From contig NZ_AMZQ01000020.1 of assembly GCF_000313615.1 (NCBI RefSeq), positions 1 to 45,000 on the forward strand: DNA of 45,000 nucleotides, in the 5' to 3' direction. Position 1 is the first letter of the stretch, and each line of letters starts with the position of its first letter. Of the stretch, positions 12,957 to 20,207 are shown one piece after another. A model generated the notes under the pieces. That model was not told the origin of the DNA. It made no database searches and saw nothing but the letters and a program-made list of their open reading frames with translations. The stretch is from Campylobacter showae CSUNSWCD (GTDB taxonomy: Bacteria > Campylobacterota > Campylobacteria > Campylobacterales > Campylobacteraceae). Both the position numbers and the translations under genes were made by a program.

Positions 12957-13394
12957 ATGCACACTTTTGATAAATTTTATATGAAATTTTTAGAGCTTTT
13001 ACGGGATTACGGATATAAAAATTCCGCCGCAAAAGAGCAAATTTTAAAAATTTTATTTTCCAGCGACGAGCACCTTGGTGCAAGCGAGATACAAACTAAG
13101 ATCAAAAGTGAATTTAGACGAAATGTGAGCCTCACGGCGATCTATCAGTTTTTAAATTTTTTGCAGGATTTCGGGCTGGTTTTGAGTTTTGAAGAGAACG
13201 GGATAAATAAATTCGAGCTAAATTTAAAGTCGCATCACGATCATCTCGTCTGTACCAAGTGCGGCGCGACCGAGAATTTTTTCGATAAAGATATAGAAGA
13301 AAAACAAGAGCAAATTTGTAGAAATTCAGGCTTTAAACTCGAAGGCCATGCGATGATTTTATACGGAATTTGTCTAAAGTGCCAAAACAAATAG
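12957..13394 (+). CDS. Fur-family metalloregulator
   Basis: A 145-residue metal-dependent repressor. The N-terminal winged helix (about 10-85) is followed by the dimer/metal domain. The regulatory-site histidines lie in KSHHDH (His93, His94, His96) with His131 further on, and the structural zinc site has two CxxC pairs (Cys99/Cys102 and Cys139/Cys142). It could be a Fur, PerR or dedicated regulator; the sequence alone does not separate these. It lies 109 bases upstream of the ferrosome-like operon in the same direction. A 21-bp palindrome in that gap is a plausible binding site, so local control of iron storage is likely. Confidence 0.9.
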   Translation: MHTFDKFYMKFLELLRDYGYKNSAAKEQILKILFSSDEHLGASEIQTKIKSEFRRNVSLTAIYQFLNFLQDFGLVLSFEENGINKFELNLKSHHDHLVCTKCGATENFFDKDIEEKQEQICRNSGFKLEGHAMILYGICLKCQNK

Positions 13395-13410
13395 CCTATT
13401 TTGCGCCTCT

Positions 13411-13431
13411 TTATCAAAAATGATTTGATAA
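13411..13431 (+). promoter_or_regulatory. 21-bp palindrome, candidate Fur-family operator
   Basis: TTATCAAA (13411-13418) and TTTGATAA (13424-13431) form a perfect 8-bp inverted repeat around a 5-base spacer. The length, AT-richness and dyad fit a Fur/PerR-type box. It lacks the GC content expected of a terminator for the preceding gene. It lies 72 bases before the first gene of the ferrosome-like operon, and a possible -10 (GATAAT) is at 13475-13480. Confidence 0.5.
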
Positions 13432-13503
13432 CGATATGCAAAAAAGTTTCAGTTAAATTTAAGCGTAGCAAATAGATAATACGCCAAAAAACAAAGGAGA
13501 AAC

Positions 13504-13845
13504 ATGAGCGCAGCGCCACATATACCATCGGAGTTAGTCTTACGCATAGCTTCGTATTTTACGCCGATCCACCACGTCGCAGGCCGTTTAAGAGTCCGCG
13601 TCAGCAGCGATATCAAAAAAGAAGCGGACAGCTTGCCGTTAGAAAAAATAGATCAAACGATCAAGCAAATAGACGGCATAAAAAACGTCAAATTTAACAA
13701 ACTAATCGGTTCTGCAACGATCGAGTACGACCACGAAGTTTTCCCGAAAAAGATGTGGGATGATCTGCTAAAAGGCGAAAATTTGCACGAAATCTCAGCC
13801 CTCATCAACAATCTAGCTCAAAAAGCTACCGGCGGCGCAAGATGA
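13504..13845 (+). CDS. HMA2-like domain protein (FezC-like)
   Basis: A 113-residue soluble protein with a ferredoxin-like heavy-metal-associated fold of the HMA2 type. The HHVAGRLRVRV segment (23-33) is the usual first strand and loop, followed by a helix (about 46-57), GIKNVKFNKLIGSATIEYD (58-76) and a last helix. It lacks the CxxC of copper-type HMA domains, so metal binding, if any, would use other ligands such as His23/His24. AAGGAG precedes the ATG. It overlaps the next gene by ATGA. Linked to a P1B-type ATPase and glycine-zipper proteins, it matches the HMA-containing component of ferrosome clusters; this role is inferred. Confidence 0.75.
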   Translation: MSAAPHIPSELVLRIASYFTPIHHVAGRLRVRVSSDIKKEADSLPLEKIDQTIKQIDGIKNVKFNKLIGSATIEYDHEVFPKKMWDDLLKGENLHEISALINNLAQKATGGAR

Positions 13846-14489
13846 ACGAGGAGCTAAAGCAAGCCGCAAATGCGGTATTTTTACTAGAGTCGCAAGGGAT
13901 CAAATTTTACGAAAACGTCTGCAAAAAAGATGAAATTTTTGATCAAATTTTAGCCGTTAGGCAAAGCGGATTAGAGCTTTTAAAGCCTTATGCAGATCCT
14001 GCCGACCCGCAAGTTTTTTGCACTTTTGTGTGCGAGGATCTTGACGCCTGCTTTATAAAAGCCCTAAACTACGAGCTTGAGCTAAATGCGTTTTATGAAA
14101 ATTTGACCGACAGCATAAACGATGAAAATTTTAAAGATATTTGTTTTAGGCTTTGGGCGACGTCAAATAACGAATACATCCCGGCCCTAAAAGCAAAACT
14201 GGCTCAAATTTTAGCCACGCAGTTTCAAGGTGCGGATAACGCAAGCCAAGAGGAGCAAGCGCAAACGGCTCAAAATCCGAGCGACAATATCTTAAACGCT
14301 TTTGATTCGGATGGCTTTAAGCAAATCAGCCAAACGCTGGAGCGCATAAGCTCCGGACAAGGCAGCAAAGAGGACGCGATCGCGCTTTTAAACAATCCGA
14401 ATTTTTCATTTTTCGGCGGTTTGGCGCTTGGCGGACTAGCCAGCATGATGCTAAGTAAAAATTTAGATAAAAATAAAGATAAAGAATAA
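13842..14489 (+). CDS. Ferritin-like (rubrerythrin-type) protein with glycine-zipper tail
   Basis: A 215-residue protein. The first 125 residues look like a four-helix ferritin-like domain: ESQGIKFYENV (16-26), then YELELNAFYENL (77-88) and ATSNNEYIPAL (106-116). These carry the Glu/Tyr spacing of rubrerythrin-like helices, although the usual ExxH pairs are not intact. A Gln/Ser-rich linker (130-175) leads to a hydrophobic FFGGLALGGLASMM segment (190-203) and a short Lys-rich end. This could tether an iron-binding domain to a membrane. The glycine-zipper tail is shared with the next three genes. Confidence 0.65.
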   Translation: MNEELKQAANAVFLLESQGIKFYENVCKKDEIFDQILAVRQSGLELLKPYADPADPQVFCTFVCEDLDACFIKALNYELELNAFYENLTDSINDENFKDICFRLWATSNNEYIPALKAKLAQILATQFQGADNASQEEQAQTAQNPSDNILNAFDSDGFKQISQTLERISSGQGSKEDAIALLNNPNFSFFGGLALGGLASMMLSKNLDKNKDKE

Positions 14490-14511
14490 AATTTAACATA
14501 AAGGATAAAAA

Positions 14512-14904
14512 ATGGCATTACCGTTTATCGCAGGTGCGGTTTTAGGAGGTTTAGCTGTCGCGGCTTTTGGCAATAAAGAAAAAATCAAATCGGCTCTTGA
14601 AAGCGGACTAGATAAAGGCAAAGAATTTGCCCAAAACGCAAAAGAATTTGCCGAGAAAAAAGTAGGCGAAGCAAAAGAGTACGCCGAGAAAAAATTTGCT
14701 AAAACAAGCGAAGAGGCAACCGAAACAAAAAAACGCACAAGACGCACTAGCGCCGAAGTAGCCGCTGAAAAAGAAGCCAAAAAAACAAAGTCTAAGAAAA
14801 AAAGCGCTCCAAGAGCTAAAAAAGCTCCGGCAAAAGCAGCCGAGCAAACCGAAAGTCTAGCCGAAGATATCGCAAATGCGCTTGAGCCGAATTTAGAAAA
14901 ATAA
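14512..14904 (+). CDS. Glycine-zipper membrane protein with 11-residue repeats and Lys/Ala-rich tail
   Basis: A 130-residue protein in three parts. A hydrophobic N-terminus with glycine spacing (AGAVLGGLAVAAFG, 7-20) is followed by an amphipathic region. Within it 11-residue units repeat (AKEFAEKKVGE, then AKEYAEKKFAK, about 43-64), as in apolipoprotein/LEA-type helices. The last part (about 72-115) is a Lys/Ala/Arg-rich tail like a histone H1 or AlgP tail. No enzyme domain is visible. It starts 22 bases after the ferritin-like gene behind AAAGGA. It may coat or shape a membrane and bind polyanions such as polyphosphate; that is speculation. Confidence 0.7.
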   Translation: MALPFIAGAVLGGLAVAAFGNKEKIKSALESGLDKGKEFAQNAKEFAEKKVGEAKEYAEKKFAKTSEEATETKKRTRRTSAEVAAEKEAKKTKSKKKSAPRAKKAPAKAAEQTESLAEDIANALEPNLEK

Positions 14905-14916
14905 TAAAGGTATAGA

Positions 14917-15222
14917 ATGAATTTAACATCAACAACCAGACTTCCAGCAGACCACTTAATAAGCGGCGCGCTAATCGGCGCAATGGCAGCCGGCGGCGTA
15001 GAAATACTAAACTATAAAAAAGGCAAGGTCAGCAAGACGCAGGCCGTAGCTAAAACGACTAAAATCGCTATCCAAGGCGGTATCGTCACGGCGTGCGCTA
15101 TCAGCGCATCAAACAAACTAGTCTCGGCGCGCTATCTTGCGGCTGCGGCAACCGTTGCCGCCGGTATCGCCGGCGTAATCGCTACGGAAAAAATAATCAA
15201 AATTTTAGAGGAAGATAAATGA
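14917..15222 (+). CDS. Small glycine-zipper membrane protein
   Basis: A 101-residue protein with three predicted hydrophobic helices (about 14-30, 48-64 and 72-95) joined by short basic loops. The first holds SGALIGAMAAGG, a glycine-zipper motif close to those of the neighbouring proteins. There are no Cys/His metal motifs. It starts 12 bases after the previous gene (ribosome-binding site AAAGG) and overlaps the next by ATGA. Small hydrophobic proteins of this kind accompany the ATPase in ferrosome clusters (FezA-like), but I cannot assign it firmly. Confidence 0.7.
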   Translation: MNLTSTTRLPADHLISGALIGAMAAGGVEILNYKKGKVSKTQAVAKTTKIAIQGGIVTACAISASNKLVSARYLAAAATVAAGIAGVIATEKIIKILEEDK

Positions 15223-15563
15223 AAAACCCTTACATAAACGAAACGCAAACTATAAATCAATTAAACGAAGACGGTAGCATGACTACGACTACTACGACGG
15301 TAAAGACTACCGGCGCTCCAAGCGCGCTGGATAACAGCATAAATAATGCGCTAAAAGACTTTATCCCCGCAAATTTTAATGCCGCGGGCTTCATAAAAGG
15401 CGCGCTAATAGGCGGCGTCGCAGCCTACGTGCTAACTAATGAAAATGCCCAAAAGGCGATATTTTCCGCCATAGTAAAAGGCTCAAATTTGCTTCAAGCC
15501 GGATTTGAGGAGTTAAAAGAACGCTTTGAAGACGTAAAGGCTGAAATTGACTCCCAAAAATAA
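15219..15563 (+). CDS. Small glycine-zipper membrane protein with Thr-rich N-terminus
   Basis: A 114-residue protein. The first 30 residues are polar with a threonine run (MTTTTTTVKTT). A single hydrophobic segment AGFIKGALIGGVAAYVL (56-72) follows, then an amphipathic helix with an EELKERFEDVKAEID end. The segment is the clearest match to the SGALIGAMAAGG and AGAVLGGLAVAA motifs of the preceding genes. Its last codons overlap the ATPase start by 17 bases, which suggests matched expression with the ATPase. Confidence 0.7.
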   Translation: MKNPYINETQTINQLNEDGSMTTTTTTVKTTGAPSALDNSINNALKDFIPANFNAAGFIKGALIGGVAAYVLTNENAQKAIFSAIVKGSNLLQAGFEELKERFEDVKAEIDSQK

Positions 15564-17622
15564 CGTTCGCATCGCACATCTAATAAAAAATCGCGTTAGG
15601 TTTATCTGCGAACGTATCGGCGAGAACTGCGACGAGAGCCATTTGGAGGCGCAAATTTCCGAATTTAAATACGTAAAAAGCGTCAGAGTAAATAAAAAAG
15701 CTAAAAGCATCGTGGTCGGCTTTGAGTCAAATTTAGACGAGATTAAAGATTTTATCGAGAATTTACAGATTAAAAATTTAAGCAAGCGTAAAGAAGAGCC
15801 GAGCAAGGCTGAAATTTATAAAGCTGCAGCCGCTTTAGCTCTCACCCCGCTGATTGGTAGCAATGGCGTAAAGGCTGCAGTTAGCCTCGTCGCCGCAGCT
15901 CCGCTACTAAAAGAAGGCGCAAGCGAAGCCGTAAACGAGGGCGTAACCTCAAAGGCTCTTGAAGCAGCGGCCGTCGGCGTGAGTCTAGCCAGGCGCGACT
16001 TTTTGGCGGCAAATAGCACAAATCTCATGCTAACTATCGGCGAATACATGGAAGAAAGCGCCGTACATCGCAGCGACGACCTCATCAAAGAGCTAGCCCG
16101 CCCAAACATCGAAGAGGTCTGGATCGAGATAAATGATCACGGCAAAAAATCTCTCAAAAAAATCCCGACCGCAGACGTAAAAATAGGCGACATCGTAGTA
16201 GTCGGCGCAGGCGAAAGCATCGGCATCGACGGCTATATCGTCGAAGGCACCGCGAGCGTAAATCAAGTCTCGATGACGGGCGAAGCAGAGCCGGTCAAAA
16301 AAGAGCGCGGCGACCGCGTGATGAGCGGAACGGTCGTCGAGGACGGACGCATAAAAATTTGGGCCGAGAGTATAGCGGCCGAGAGCGCAACAGCGAGGAT
16401 AAAATCCTACATCCAAAGCTCGCTAAACGAAAAATCGGCCGTCGGGTTAAAAGCCACGAGGCTAGCCGACAAGCTAGTGCCCGTGACGCTAAGCCTAGCC
16501 GGCGTTTCGTATCTGCTTAGCCGCGATATGACGCGCGTCGCTAGCGTCTTGCAGGCGGACTACTCCTGCGCGCTAAAGCTAGCCACACCCGTCGCCTTTA
16601 AATCAAGCATCTCAAAAGCAGGCCGCAACGGCGTGCTGATAAAGGGCGCTAAATCTATCGAAGCGCTAGCGAGCGCAGATACTTTCGTCTTTGATAAAAC
16701 GGGCACATTAACGCACGGCAGCTTAAGCGTCGTGAAAGTTCACTCGTTTAAAAAAGAATTTACCGAGGCTCAGCTCTTAAATTTGACCGCAAGCGCAGAG
16801 GAGCACTACTTTCACCCCGTAGCCGAGGCTATCGTAAAGGCCGCTAGAGAGATAGGCTTTCATCATATCCACCACGACGAGGTCGAGTTTATCGTCGCTC
16901 ACGGCGTGAAAACCTACGTAGGCGGCAAAGAGGTCGTGATCGGCTCGCGGCATTTTTTAGAGGACGACGAGCAAATTTCATTTAGCAAACACGAAGAAAT
17001 CATAAAAAGCGAAGTAGATAGCGGACTTACGCTACTATACATAGGCTACGACAAAGAGCTTTTAGGTATCATCGCCATGCGCGACACTATGCGAGAAAAC
17101 GCCGCGCAGACGCTGGCAAAACTGCGAAAACTAGGCGTAAAAGAGCTAATCATGCTAACGGGCGACGTGCAGTCTAAAGCTGATCAGGTAGCAAGCGAGC
17201 TAGGTATCGATAGAGTCTATGCAAACTGCCTACCTACCGATAAAGCAGGCATTATCGAGCAGCTAAAAGCCGAAGGTAAAAAAGTAGCCTTCGTCGGAGA
17301 CGGCATCAACGACGCGCCAAGCCTCACCAAGGCGCACGTAGGCATCAGCATGCAAAGAGGTGCAGACATCGCAAAAGCTACCGCCGACATCAGCCTACTA
17401 AAAGACGACATCGGCTCGGTCGCCGTCGCAAAAGACATCGCAAATAAAACGATGAGGCTGATAAATACGAATTTTAACGCTACCGTCGGCATAAACTCGC
17501 TCATCCTAGCAGGTGCTACGTTTGGACTCTTTAACCCTATCGCCACGGCCGTTTTACACAACGGCACGACGATCGGACTGCTGGCAAATTCGATGAAAGG
17601 CGTCAAGATAGGCGCGAAGTAA
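15547..17622 (+). CDS. P1B-type metal ATPase with Ser-Cys membrane motif (FezB-like, P1B-6)
   Basis: A 691-residue metal-transporting P-type ATPase. An HMA2-like N-terminal domain without CxxC (about 5-75) precedes the membrane and actuator regions (TGE at 244-246). The ion-site motif is YSCALKLATP with Ser340-Cys341, not the CPC of Cu/Zn pumps. The phosphorylation site is Asp383 in DKTGT, the His-Pro pair is 423-424 and the hinge is GDGIND (584-589). The start is TTG at 15547, chosen for the AAAGG seven bases upstream; no ATG is available nearby. The motif and gene context fit the P1B-6 iron pumps of ferrosomes, which would load ferrous iron into a membrane compartment. The ion is inferred. 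Confidence 0.85.
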   Translation: MTPKNNVRIAHLIKNRVRFICERIGENCDESHLEAQISEFKYVKSVRVNKKAKSIVVGFESNLDEIKDFIENLQIKNLSKRKEEPSKAEIYKAAAALALTPLIGSNGVKAAVSLVAAAPLLKEGASEAVNEGVTSKALEAAAVGVSLARRDFLAANSTNLMLTIGEYMEESAVHRSDDLIKELARPNIEEVWIEINDHGKKSLKKIPTADVKIGDIVVVGAGESIGIDGYIVEGTASVNQVSMTGEAEPVKKERGDRVMSGTVVEDGRIKIWAESIAAESATARIKSYIQSSLNEKSAVGLKATRLADKLVPVTLSLAGVSYLLSRDMTRVASVLQADYSCALKLATPVAFKSSISKAGRNGVLIKGAKSIEALASADTFVFDKTGTLTHGSLSVVKVHSFKKEFTEAQLLNLTASAEEHYFHPVAEAIVKAAREIGFHHIHHDEVEFIVAHGVKTYVGGKEVVIGSRHFLEDDEQISFSKHEEIIKSEVDSGLTLLYIGYDKELLGIIAMRDTMRENAAQTLAKLRKLGVKELIMLTGDVQSKADQVASELGIDRVYANCLPTDKAGIIEQLKAEGKKVAFVGDGINDAPSLTKAHVGISMQRGADIAKATADISLLKDDIGSVAVAKDIANKTMRLINTNFNATVGINSLILAGATFGLFNPIATAVLHNGTTIGLLANSMKGVKIGAK

Positions 17623-17639: not shown

Positions 17640-19100
17640 TTGATAGATAAAATTTTAAAATTTATGAACGACGAGATGTCGCTAACCAACGACTTTTTAT
17701 ACGGCTATTTTTTGGTTATCGTGCTCGTTCTTACTGGTATTTATTTTAGCTATATCACTAGATTCGTGCAGTTTAGGATGTTTTTCGAGGCGTGCAAAGT
17801 GCTAGTCGAGAAAAAAGATAAATACAACAAGCACCACCTTACGCCCTTTCAAGCGCTTATGATCTCTACCGCCTCGCGCGTGGGCATCGGAAATATCGCC
17901 GGCATCTCCGCTGCTATCGTAGCCGGCGGTCCGGGCGCGCTATTTTGGATGTGTTTGATGGCGTTTTTGGGCGCGGCTTCGGCATTTGCCGAGAGTACGC
18001 TAGCTCAAATTTACAAAACCAAAGACGTATTCGGCTTTAAGGGCGGCCCGGCATACTACATCAAAAACGGTCTAGGCATTAAATGGCTAGCTACGCTTTT
18101 TGCAGTTATCCTCGTCATTACCTACGCTTACGGATTTAACGGCCTACAAAGCTACACCATGACCTCCGCCTTTCAAATTTACTACGACCAAAGCGCGGGC
18201 GCTACGAGCTTTAGCGATAGCGGCTTGCCGGTTGGTATCGGGCTCATCCTTACCGCATTTGCGGCGGTTATGTTTTTTAGCAAGAGCCATATTATCGGCA
18301 AGGTTAGCTCCTACATCGTGCCTTTTATGGCGCTTGCTTACATCCTGCTAGCCTTTATCGCGATCTGCTTAAATTTAGACAAGCTCCCGTCAGTATTTGA
18401 TATGATTATAAAAAGCGCCTTTGATTTTAAGGCGATATTTGGCGGATTTGCCGGTAGCGTGATCGTCTACGGTATCAAGCGCGGACTATTTTCAAACGAA
18501 GCGGGCATGGGTTCTGCGCCAAACGCGGCCGCTGCTGCTCATACTAGCCACCCGGTTAAACAAGGACTCGTGCAGGCGATGGCGGTTTTTATAGATATGA
18601 CGATCTGCGTGGCTTCTGGCATGATAGTGCTTTTCTCGCAGGCCTATATCACAAAGCAAACTGGCGCCAGCGGCGAGCTACTAACCGCGCTTCCTTTGGT
18701 GCAGGCTGCAATGCGCGAGTACTACGGCGAGATCGGCCTTCACTTTACGACGCTTGCGGTGGTGCTTTTTGCGATCACATCGCTGATCGGCAACTACTAC
18801 TACGCGCAGGCAAATATCAAATACCTCACCAAAAACCACAAAATCGCCATGGCATTTAAGGTTACGGCGGTCGCAATGATATTCGTCGGAGCGCAGATGA
18901 ACCTAACTATCGCCTGGAACATCGCCGATATCACGATGGCTGCGATGGCTACGATAAATATCGCGGCGATCTTTATGCTATCAAAAGTCATGATAAAAGC
19001 CCTAAAAGACTACGAATCGCAAAGAAAAGCTGGGCTAAATCCGGAATTTGACCCTGAGAGCATAGGTATCGCAAACACAACTTGCTGGAGAAAAAAATGA
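17640..19100 (+). CDS. Alanine/glycine:cation symporter (AGCS family)
   Basis: A 486-residue inner-membrane transporter with about 11 membrane helices. The family signature is ASRVGIGNIAGISAAIVAGG followed by PGALFWM, and GLFSNEAGMGSAPNAAAAAH is the second conserved block. It should import alanine or glycine with sodium. The start is a TTG at 17640 with GAAGGA eight bases upstream. The gene begins 17 bases after the ATPase stop, so it is read with the metal operon, although its link to iron storage is unclear. It overlaps the next gene by ATGA. Confidence 0.9.
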   Translation: MIDKILKFMNDEMSLTNDFLYGYFLVIVLVLTGIYFSYITRFVQFRMFFEACKVLVEKKDKYNKHHLTPFQALMISTASRVGIGNIAGISAAIVAGGPGALFWMCLMAFLGAASAFAESTLAQIYKTKDVFGFKGGPAYYIKNGLGIKWLATLFAVILVITYAYGFNGLQSYTMTSAFQIYYDQSAGATSFSDSGLPVGIGLILTAFAAVMFFSKSHIIGKVSSYIVPFMALAYILLAFIAICLNLDKLPSVFDMIIKSAFDFKAIFGGFAGSVIVYGIKRGLFSNEAGMGSAPNAAAAAHTSHPVKQGLVQAMAVFIDMTICVASGMIVLFSQAYITKQTGASGELLTALPLVQAAMREYYGEIGLHFTTLAVVLFAITSLIGNYYYAQANIKYLTKNHKIAMAFKVTAVAMIFVGAQMNLTIAWNIADITMAAMATINIAAIFMLSKVMIKALKDYESQRKAGLNPEFDPESIGIANTTCWRKK

Positions 19101-19381
19101 ACATAAACGGACAACTTTTAAATTTACAAACCCATAGAAAAGTCGCCAAAGTCGGCATGAGCGTCACCTTAGCTACCGTTTGCCTAACAGCACTCGGGCT
19201 TAAGGGTAGAAACAAAAGCCGCTGCGCGAAGCTACACACGATAGCAGGTATCGCATTTGTGGGATTTTCGCTCTACCACGCGGGACTTTACGAAAACGGC
19301 TTTTTTAGAAATATGATCGTAAACGCAAATAAGAAAAACGCCGAGGCAAAAAGGCTAGCAAGCGATGATCAAGATAAGTGA
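19097..19381 (+). CDS. Small membrane protein with conserved-looking histidines
   Basis: A 94-residue protein with two membrane helices. His13 precedes the first (about 19-34, VGMSVTLATVCLTALGL). The second (LHTIAGIAFVGFSLYHAGLY, about 47-66) has a histidine at each end. This spacing recalls small b-type haem-binding membrane modules, but no family is recognised. The ATG at 19097 was chosen because it overlaps the symporter stop (ATGA). The C-terminus is polar and overlaps the modD start by 17 bases. Confidence 0.65.
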   Translation: MNINGQLLNLQTHRKVAKVGMSVTLATVCLTALGLKGRNKSRCAKLHTIAGIAFVGFSLYHAGLYENGFFRNMIVNANKKNAEAKRLASDDQDK

Positions 19382-20207
19382 CGCCGAAATTTTAGCCTAC
19401 ATCGGCGAGGATCTGCCCTACTTTGATCTCACGACATCGCTTCAAGGCATCCGCAAAAATGCCGTTTTAACCATACTGCCGCGCGAGGACGTGACGGTTA
19501 GCTGCGTAGACGTAGCGGCCGATATCGCGCGTTTGCTTGGCTGCGAGGTTCAAATTTGCGTCCCAAACTCAGCCGTCGCGGCCGCAAAAAAGCCGATCGT
19601 AAAAATAAGCGGCAGTTACGACGACGTGCACAAAGCCTGGAAGCTAGCGCAAATTTGCCTAGAGTACGCCTGCCGGATCGCCACCTACGCAAGAGCGATG
19701 AACGAAGCCGCCAAAAGCGTAAATCCAAAATGCGAAATCCTAGCCACGCGCAAGAGCTTTCCGTTTGCTAAGAAATTTTGCCTAAAGGCCGTGCTTGAGG
19801 GCGGCTGCGGCGTGCATAGGCTAAATTTGAGCGATAGCGTGCTGTTTTTCAAAAATCATATAAAGGCCTACGACTCGTATGAGGAGTTTTTGGCCCAAAT
19901 TCCAACCTTCAAAGCAAAATCTCCCGAGCGCAAAATCGCCGTCGAATGCGAAAATTTAGATGATTGCGAAGCGCTTTTAAAGGCGGGCGCCGACGTCGTG
20001 CAGTGTGATAAATTTATACCAGCAGCCGTAAAGCGAGCGGTAGGCTTGCGAGATAAAATCGCCCCAAACGCAGCCCTAGTCGCAAGCGGCGGGATAAATC
20101 TAAAAAACGTCATAGAATTCGCTGTCACCGGCGCGGACGCACTCGTTACGTCTGCTATGTACACGCAAGGCATGGCCGACATCACGGCGGTTTTAGAGAT
20201 AGTATAA
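19365..20207 (+). CDS. modD: ModD, nicotinate phosphoribosyltransferase-like protein
   Basis: A 280-residue member of the quinolinate phosphoribosyltransferase (NadC) superfamily, of the ModD subfamily often annotated with molybdenum transport. An N-terminal alpha/beta domain (about 1-110) precedes a TIM-like barrel with ATRKSFPFAKKFCLKAVLEGG, GCGVHRLNLSD and the phosphate-binding ASGGINLKNV and GADALVTSAMY ends. The true reaction is not established for ModD proteins. No mod transporter genes are adjacent. It is the last gene before the terminator at 20211, so it closes the metal operon. Confidence 0.85.
   Translation: MIKISDAEILAYIGEDLPYFDLTTSLQGIRKNAVLTILPREDVTVSCVDVAADIARLLGCEVQICVPNSAVAAAKKPIVKISGSYDDVHKAWKLAQICLEYACRIATYARAMNEAAKSVNPKCEILATRKSFPFAKKFCLKAVLEGGCGVHRLNLSDSVLFFKNHIKAYDSYEEFLAQIPTFKAKSPERKIAVECENLDDCEALLKAGADVVQCDKFIPAAVKRAVGLRDKIAPNAALVASGGINLKNVIEFAVTGADALVTSAMYTQGMADITAVLEIV

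Follow-up and report, generated by a model that had tools for sequence, protein, structure and literature searches.

The window analysed here is a stretch of 45,000 nucleotides from Campylobacter showae CSUNSWCD (NCBI RefSeq assembly GCF_000313615.1, contig NZ_AMZQ01000020.1, positions 1 to 45,000 of the forward strand) with a G+C content of 45.9%; the genome searched comprises 2,124,120 bases on 23 contigs. Between positions 12957 and 17622 the window carries a Fur-family gene and, directly behind it, six further genes encoding an HMA_2 protein, a ferritin-like protein, a Lys/Ala-rich protein (Lys/Ala protein), two glycine-rich membrane proteins (GZ1 and GZ2) and a FezB-like P1B-type ATPase. 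An initial annotation had read these six as a candidate ferrosome, or fez-type, cluster for iron storage, and all frames were recovered where it had placed them, open, on the forward strand and overlapping or closely spaced. The cluster does not end at position 17622, as had been assumed: a DUF4405-like gene at 19082-19381, found near the ATPase gene in 36 of 40 Campylobacterota loci, belongs to it. The features of the locus are listed below.

12957-13394, forward strand: Fur-family regulator (PF01475, E = 6.4e-30), a candidate local regulator.
13426-13480, forward strand: operator-like block TGATAACGATATGCAA at 13426-13441, then a promoter-like stretch with GATAAT at 13475-13480.
13504-13845, forward strand: HMA_2 protein (PF19991, E = 1.2e-8, 35.5 bits against a cut-off of 30).
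13842-14489, forward strand: ferritin-like (DUF2202-like) protein of 215 amino acids, predicted helical domain followed by a C-terminal Gly-rich hydrophobic tail.
14512-14904, forward strand: Lys/Ala protein, one Gly-zipper membrane helix and a basic Lys/Ala/Pro-rich tail.
14917-15222, forward strand: GZ1, a Gly-rich, MamC-like membrane protein with two helices.
15219-15563, forward strand: GZ2, one Gly-zipper helix and a charged helix, EELKERFEDVKAEI.
15547-17622, forward strand: FezB-like P1B ATPase, TTG start, N-terminal HMA_2 domain, DYSCALK ion motif.
17640-19100, forward strand: AgcS sodium:alanine symporter (PF01235, E = 1.6e-139), inside the gene run.
19082-19381, forward strand: two-helix DUF4405-like protein, a FezC-like putative heme cytochrome; the ATG at 19097 is an alternative start.

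Recurrence of the cluster and its counterparts in fez operons

Of 298 Campylobacterota genomes, 101, from 20 of 58 genera, each contain one match to the ATPase (E ≤ 1e-100). A GZ2 profile gave a single match per genome in exactly the same 101 genomes, the two lists of genome handles having been matched by eye. Even in the family to which the window belongs, the distribution is uneven: genus g2, which accounts for 19 of the 20 non-matching genomes that were named (beside 177 further non-matching ones), contains none of the 101 matches. To describe the neighbourhood, 40 Campylobacterota stretches from ATPase-positive genomes were searched in a single pass for genes on the same strand within 5 kb of the ATPase gene. 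HMA_2 and GZ2 genes accompany it in all 40, Lys/Ala, GZ1 and DUF4405-like genes in 36 each, a ferritin-like gene in 33, a Fur-family gene in 14, a second ATPase gene in seven and agcS in three. Where the set is full, the order is HMA_2, ferritin-like, Lys/Ala, GZ1, GZ2, ATPase and DUF4405-like. Because neighbours recur in 33 to 40 of the 40 loci, the gene arrangement is not due to chance. The deep members L066 and L067 hold just HMA_2, GZ2 and an ATPase that lacks the N-terminal HMA_2 domain.

According to the available text of PMC12016538, six fez genes underlie ferrosome formation in Rhodopseudomonas palustris CGA009. We compared the window with Rhodopseudomonas sp. BR0M22 and its congeners. 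The BR0M22 cluster, which would correspond to RPA2333-2338 of CGA009, comprises six genes: an HMA_2-DUF4405 fusion, HMA_2, Lys/Ala-type, GZ1, GZ2 and the ATPase. Five of 16 Rhodopseudomonas-genus genomes have an ATPase match (E ≤ 1e-130), four of them at 92-100% identity (BR0M22 included, and one with an in-frame TGA) and one at 42%. Profile-profile alignment (hhalign) of the Campylobacterota families with their proteobacterial counterparts gave pairwise probabilities, calculated without a database background, of 99.7% for HMA_2, 99.3% for GZ2, 98.1% for GZ1 and 96.0% for Lys/Ala; the window-type DUF4405 protein reached 94.8% against the C-terminal portion of the HMA_2-DUF4405 fusion of proteobacteria. 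Off the diagonal, Campylobacterota HMA_2 paired with the fusion at 98.4% through the shared domain, and three unexpected pairs of 21-26 columns each appeared (Campylobacterota Lys/Ala with proteobacterial GZ2, 91.1%; GZ2 with Lys/Ala, 69.5%; ferritin-like with Lys/Ala, 63.5%); other pairs were mostly low.

The window therefore holds counterparts of all six BR0M22 families, with its ATPase in the same clade. It differs from the R. palustris-type operon in that its FezC-like domain is encoded by a separate short gene after the ATPase gene rather than by an HMA_2-DUF4405 fusion in front, and in three additional genes: the ferritin-like gene between the HMA_2 and Lys/Ala genes, the upstream Fur-family gene and the intervening agcS. 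A scan of named genomes with an Azospirillum query, which is biased toward kin of Azospirillum, found 247 relatives; the 80 best-ranked were used, which are all proteobacterial by title and include BR0M22. The six families are complete on 63 of these 80 loci, a count affected by contig ends that truncate some loci and by fusion genes that sometimes lie on the opposite strand. In the proteobacterial clusters of Azospirillum and Rhodopseudomonas, the DUF4405 part is fused behind the HMA_2 domain. Betaproteobacteria (Aromatoleum, Thauera and Rhodocyclus) share the gene set of the window, and their ferritin-like gene likewise sits between those for HMA_2 and Lys/Ala; unlike the window, they have HMA_2 and DUF4405 fused where found, and their ferritin-like proteins can carry an ExxH motif.

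The agcS gene lies between the ATPase and DUF4405-like genes in the window as well as in L036, L039 and L069. We dropped it as a cluster member, given its presence near the ATPase gene in just three of the 40 loci. The DUF4405-like gene shares its last 17 bases with a frame of 280 amino acids at 19365-20207 that looks ModD/NadC-like by eye.

Sequence features and phylogeny of the ATPase

The N-terminal HMA_2 domain of the ATPase scores just above the Pfam cut-off (E = 3.7e-7, 30.7 bits against 30). The Ser-Cys ion motif that had been read from the sequence is present as DYSCALK at residues 338-344 (positions 16558-16578). We take P1B-6 to be the class name of such DYxC-type ATPases.

A larger tree was built from 65 collected ATPases and that of the window, after removal of 14 near-duplicate loci. 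A second tree of 32 proteins consisted of 31 ATPases from the larger one and CoaT, with L172 omitted on account of its long branch; the pumps compared in it were CPC pumps, a ZntA-like pump and CoaT. The 20 ATPases with a DYxC motif form a single clade (support 100/100), and the Rhodopseudomonas ATPase falls alongside that of the window in an inner clade of 17 rows (99/98). When the window group (three rows, picked by motif after the larger tree had been inspected) was constrained to join the 12 CPC/SPC pumps, which represent the Cu, Zn and Co types sampled, the approximately unbiased (AU) test rejected the topology with a p-AU of 1.3e-5. The window ATPase did not group with copper or zinc pumps in this tree, which contained no Mn pump, and the tree and AU test exclude its identity as a CopA/ZntA-type pump.

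Several relatives of this ATPase deserve mention. In seven of the 40 loci (L037, 4326-6503; L040, 4606-6762; L041, L042, L043, L044 and L075), the gene for a second P1B ATPase lies between the Fur and HMA_2 genes; its product has an MSCPC motif, and its N-terminus is HMA_2-like and rich in Arg. The five of these seven that were placed in the tree are sister to the FezB-like clade (98/97); none was seen in the window. The ATPases of L079, L080 and L169 (FLVDYSCA/FLIDYACP), from Cereibacter, Vibrio and one Rhodopseudomonas-genus genome, form a divergent sister group, and the Cereibacter and Vibrio clusters encode Pro/Gly- or Pro/Met-rich proteins with Gly-rich helices at the end. In the larger tree, the ATPase of L081, an Arcobacter plasmid sequence, stands beside that of L051. 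The ATPase genes of G256 (Campylobacterota) and G304 (Rhodopseudomonas genus) contain one in-frame TGA each, reflecting either decay or sequencing error.

Partner proteins of the ATPase

The HMA2-like call made for the first gene was borne out by the PF19991 match above the Pfam cut-off. The protein contains no cysteine, carries the basic motif HHxxGRLRVR and has no predicted membrane helix. All three proteins that had been called glycine-zipper proteins do have Gly-rich hydrophobic segments; in only one of them, the Lys/Ala protein, are GxxxG-like motifs clearly more frequent than in shuffled versions (p = 0.022, compared with 0.10 for GZ1 and 0.11 for GZ2). The initial annotation had further suggested that the Lys/Ala protein is a lineage-specific addition. 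This is refuted by the hhalign pairing with the proteobacterial counterpart and by an alignment of the family, which make it a standard component. Scans of the Lys/Ala family against Pfam and NCBIfam, and of GZ2 against NCBIfam, returned scattered weak matches and nothing else. DNA-binding tails exist in some granule proteins, and it is conceivable, as a guess from composition, that the Lys/Ala/Pro tail could bind DNA.

GZ1 resembles MamC, a protein that regulates magnetosome crystallisation according to the available part of a review (PMC12199438). The window GZ1 matches the NCBIfam MamC model (NF038051) at E = 0.0026 with 18.0 bits, and 19 of 33 members of the GZ1 family do so at E ≤ 0.05, the best being from Vibrio (8.8e-9). 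With a best score of 35.6 bits, the family stays well beneath the model's cut-off of 100, and GZ1 is unlikely to be MamC proper. We identified a MamC in Magnetospirillum sp. SS-4 at 142 bits. Used as a query against 9818 open reading frames, it returned GZ1 proteins as its top 16 matches (15 labelled by profile and the Vibrio one by gene position), the best at E = 1.1e-6. Conversely, the Campylobacterota GZ1 profile gave SS-4 MamC 29.0 bits and a mixed GZ1 profile 35.7; 1000 shuffled versions did not exceed 9.6 bits, the reversed one scored 0.9, and the GZ2 and Lys/Ala profiles gave SS-4 MamC no more than 3.7 bits. The hhalign probability for GZ1 and MamC is 93.2% over 96 columns. This similarity to SS-4 MamC, and to the MamC model over nearly its whole length, suggests that GZ1 may well be homologous to MamC. 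Against homology stand three observations: the proteobacterial GZ1 profile alone scores MamC at 4.2 bits, under the best shuffle (7.2); the model is matched neither by the GZ1 proteins of L078, L113 and L057 nor by those of Azospirillum and Rhodopseudomonas; and a search of seven Magnetospirillum-type genomes that carry fez loci gave a single match to the MamC model at E ≤ 0.01, the MamC of SS-4 itself. The SS-4 genome (L100, L182) contains a fez-type cluster together with MamC; a fez-type cluster and MamC can therefore coexist in one genome. No link between MamC and ferrosomes was found in the accessible portions of the open-access literature searched.

The ferritin-like protein has no Pfam match at E ≤ 0.1. 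Its fold is suggested by weak DUF2202 and Rubrerythrin matches of homologues: of three that were scanned for DUF2202, that of L045 passes the cut-off (24.5 against 22 bits), and those of L081 and L128 fall beneath it. A deposited Arcobacter record labels its homologue DUF2202. For the window protein itself, Pfam does not show the ferritin-like call of the initial annotation. The residue pattern gives E, ExxH, E and N(N/H)H as putative iron ligands in Arcobacter (L081) and in many relatives. The window protein retains the glutamates of helices 1 and 3, lacks ExxH in helix 2 and has NNE in place of N(N/H)H. Among 37 Campylobacterota rows, classed by pattern, 14, including the window, have NEY and no ExxH within the stretch searched, and 18 have both N(N/H)H and ExxH. 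In the proteobacterial alignment, which covers 16 of 22 proteins, ExxH is retained by pattern in eight of the 16 rows. Since the iron site is partly lost in the window, its ferritin-like protein may serve as a scaffold instead of a ferroxidase. The protein ends in the Gly-rich tail 'SFFGGLALGGLASMM'; its hydrophobicity peak of 1.24 is slightly below the helix threshold of 1.3, and a membrane anchor is likely. In Proteobacteria, 22 of 88 loci have a homologue (E ≤ 2.6e-6) placed between the genes for HMA_2 and Lys/Ala. The ferritin-like protein is the real addition to the six-gene set, and the window shares it with betaproteobacteria.

The protein encoded at 19082-19381 matches PF14358 at E = 0.0033, beneath the Pfam cut-off, and two histidines are invariant in all 38 aligned members of its DUF4405-like family. 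The ferrosome protein FezC is described as a DUF4405-like heme-b protein in the available text of PMC10979944 and PMC11334425, the latter reporting heme b binding by FezC of Desulfurispirillum indicum. Like these cytochromes, the window protein is a short membrane protein with two conserved histidines, encoded beside a FezB-like pump; unlike them, it has no HMA_2 part. It is a putative heme protein and resembles FezC.

Regulation, proposed function and alternatives

The genome contains four Fur-family genes. One lies directly upstream of the cluster in 16 of 21 same-genus loci; among the other five, three have a second ATPase gene upstream, one is cut short and one has neither. Between the Fur-family and HMA_2 genes, a GATAAYGA..CAAAA block and a promoter-like stretch ending in ATAAT are kept in 20 of the 21 loci, many of them closely related. 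The exact operator-like site occurs once in the genome. Of three copies with one mismatch, one is flanked by a TonB-receptor-like frame and by another that resembles the substrate-binding protein of a transporter; the other two fall within, or at the border of, frames that do not resemble iron genes.

On the gene content, order, homology and co-occurrence described above, and on the class and phylogeny of the ATPase, we judge it quite likely that 13504-17622 together with 19082-19381 is a fez-type operon that would build ferrosomes, membrane-bounded iron stores. The proposal of the initial annotation thus gains support from the gene-by-gene Rhodopseudomonas counterparts, the ATPase phylogeny and the joint occurrence of GZ2 and the ATPase. 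Iron genes adjoining the clusters of two relatives, the heme-protein nature of FezC and the conserved block upstream also count in its favour. At low iron, the promoter at 13426-13480 would be freed of the Fur paralogue, the genomic Fur or both. By means of their Gly-zipper helices, GZ1, GZ2 and the Lys/Ala protein would enter the membrane and give a vesicle its shape or scaffold, and the FezB-like ATPase would move Fe(II) from the cytosol into its lumen. The HMA_2 domains, with a basic motif in place of CxxC, may load or gate the ATPase. The FezC-like protein would bind heme and pass electrons across the vesicle membrane, an electron transfer that would let iron enter storage in oxidised form and leave it as Fe(II). 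It is plausible that the ferritin-like protein, through its Gly-rich tail, holds or passes on iron at the membrane. A wider proposal, which we regard as about evenly balanced, is that GZ1 and MamC share one ancestor and that Campylobacterota and betaproteobacteria gained a ferritin-like protein whose Gly-rich tail lies in the membrane; a single organelle would then unite a vesicle filled by a pump, redox control through heme and iron binding of the ferritin-like kind.

Several observations weigh against a ferrosome operon. No iron-uptake gene adjoining the cluster was seen among the listed frames of the window, by eye and in ten Pfam scans. As a Fur box, the operator-like site of the window does not stand out from shuffled sequences (p = 0.38), and p ≤ 0.05 was reached in five of 42 loci. 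The DUF4405-like protein scores 18.3 bits in the Pfam scan against a cut-off of 26.7. The reference for the comparison was BR0M22 with its congeners, not CGA009, S. putrefaciens, D. magneticus or C. difficile.

The same genes could instead encode a metal-efflux platform in the plasma membrane, with the Gly-zipper proteins as PacL-like scaffolds of a P1B exporter and no organelle. The model would be mycobacterial PacL1, described in the available text of PMC9374683 as a small one-helix protein whose cytoplasmic part has Glu/Ala repeats and which acts as a scaffold that brings the exporter CtpC into membrane foci; the PacL-CtpC platform and the window share small one-helix proteins encoded beside a P1B ATPase, and the general design of the Lys/Ala protein and GZ2 resembles PacL1. 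DUF1490, the PacL domain, was however absent from Pfam scans of the window proteins, 24 Lys/Ala members and two GZ2 homologues (other GZ2 members were not scanned), heme and ferritin-like partners would suit storage better, and the gene set matches the six-gene Rhodopseudomonas cluster of the ferrosome-making kind, which leaves an efflux platform unlikely. We consider it very improbable that the cluster serves a ferrosome-like store for a metal other than iron, or chiefly metal detoxification. The metal is here predicted from gene content, and P1B-6 and P1B-7 pumps lacked biochemical study as of 2016, according to the available text of PMC4932525; yet the Fur-family gene upstream in most same-genus loci and the FezC-type heme protein speak for iron, as do the iron-uptake genes that adjoin the clusters of two relatives (an iron ABC transporter gene at the related cluster of Azospirillum, and FeoA and TonB receptor genes at the divergent cluster of Cereibacter). 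Decay of a co-inherited operon in this strain, to the point of loss of function, might be read from the separation of the ATPase and DUF4405-like genes by agcS and from a ferritin-like domain without ExxH. We give it almost no weight, as every frame is open, the overlaps are retained, the promoter block is conserved and L036, whose ATPase is 95% identical to that of the window, shares the layout.

Fez clusters have reportedly been described as widespread by Grant in 2022, and the cluster is therefore not a new kind. Its split FezC-like gene, ferritin-like member and MamC-like GZ1 nonetheless make it a variant worth describing, and no report of a Campylobacter ferrosome was found in the accessible portions of the open-access literature searched. 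The similarity of GZ1 to MamC offers a testable tie between ferrosomes and magnetosomes, and the ferritin-like gene raises the question of whether ferrosomes may contain an iron-binding protein of their own. Provided that the cluster works, storage of the ferrosome type reaches about one-third of the sampled Campylobacterota genomes. A fezB mutant of C. difficile colonises mice less well, according to the available text of PMC12574912; iron storage of this type could therefore matter for life in a host.

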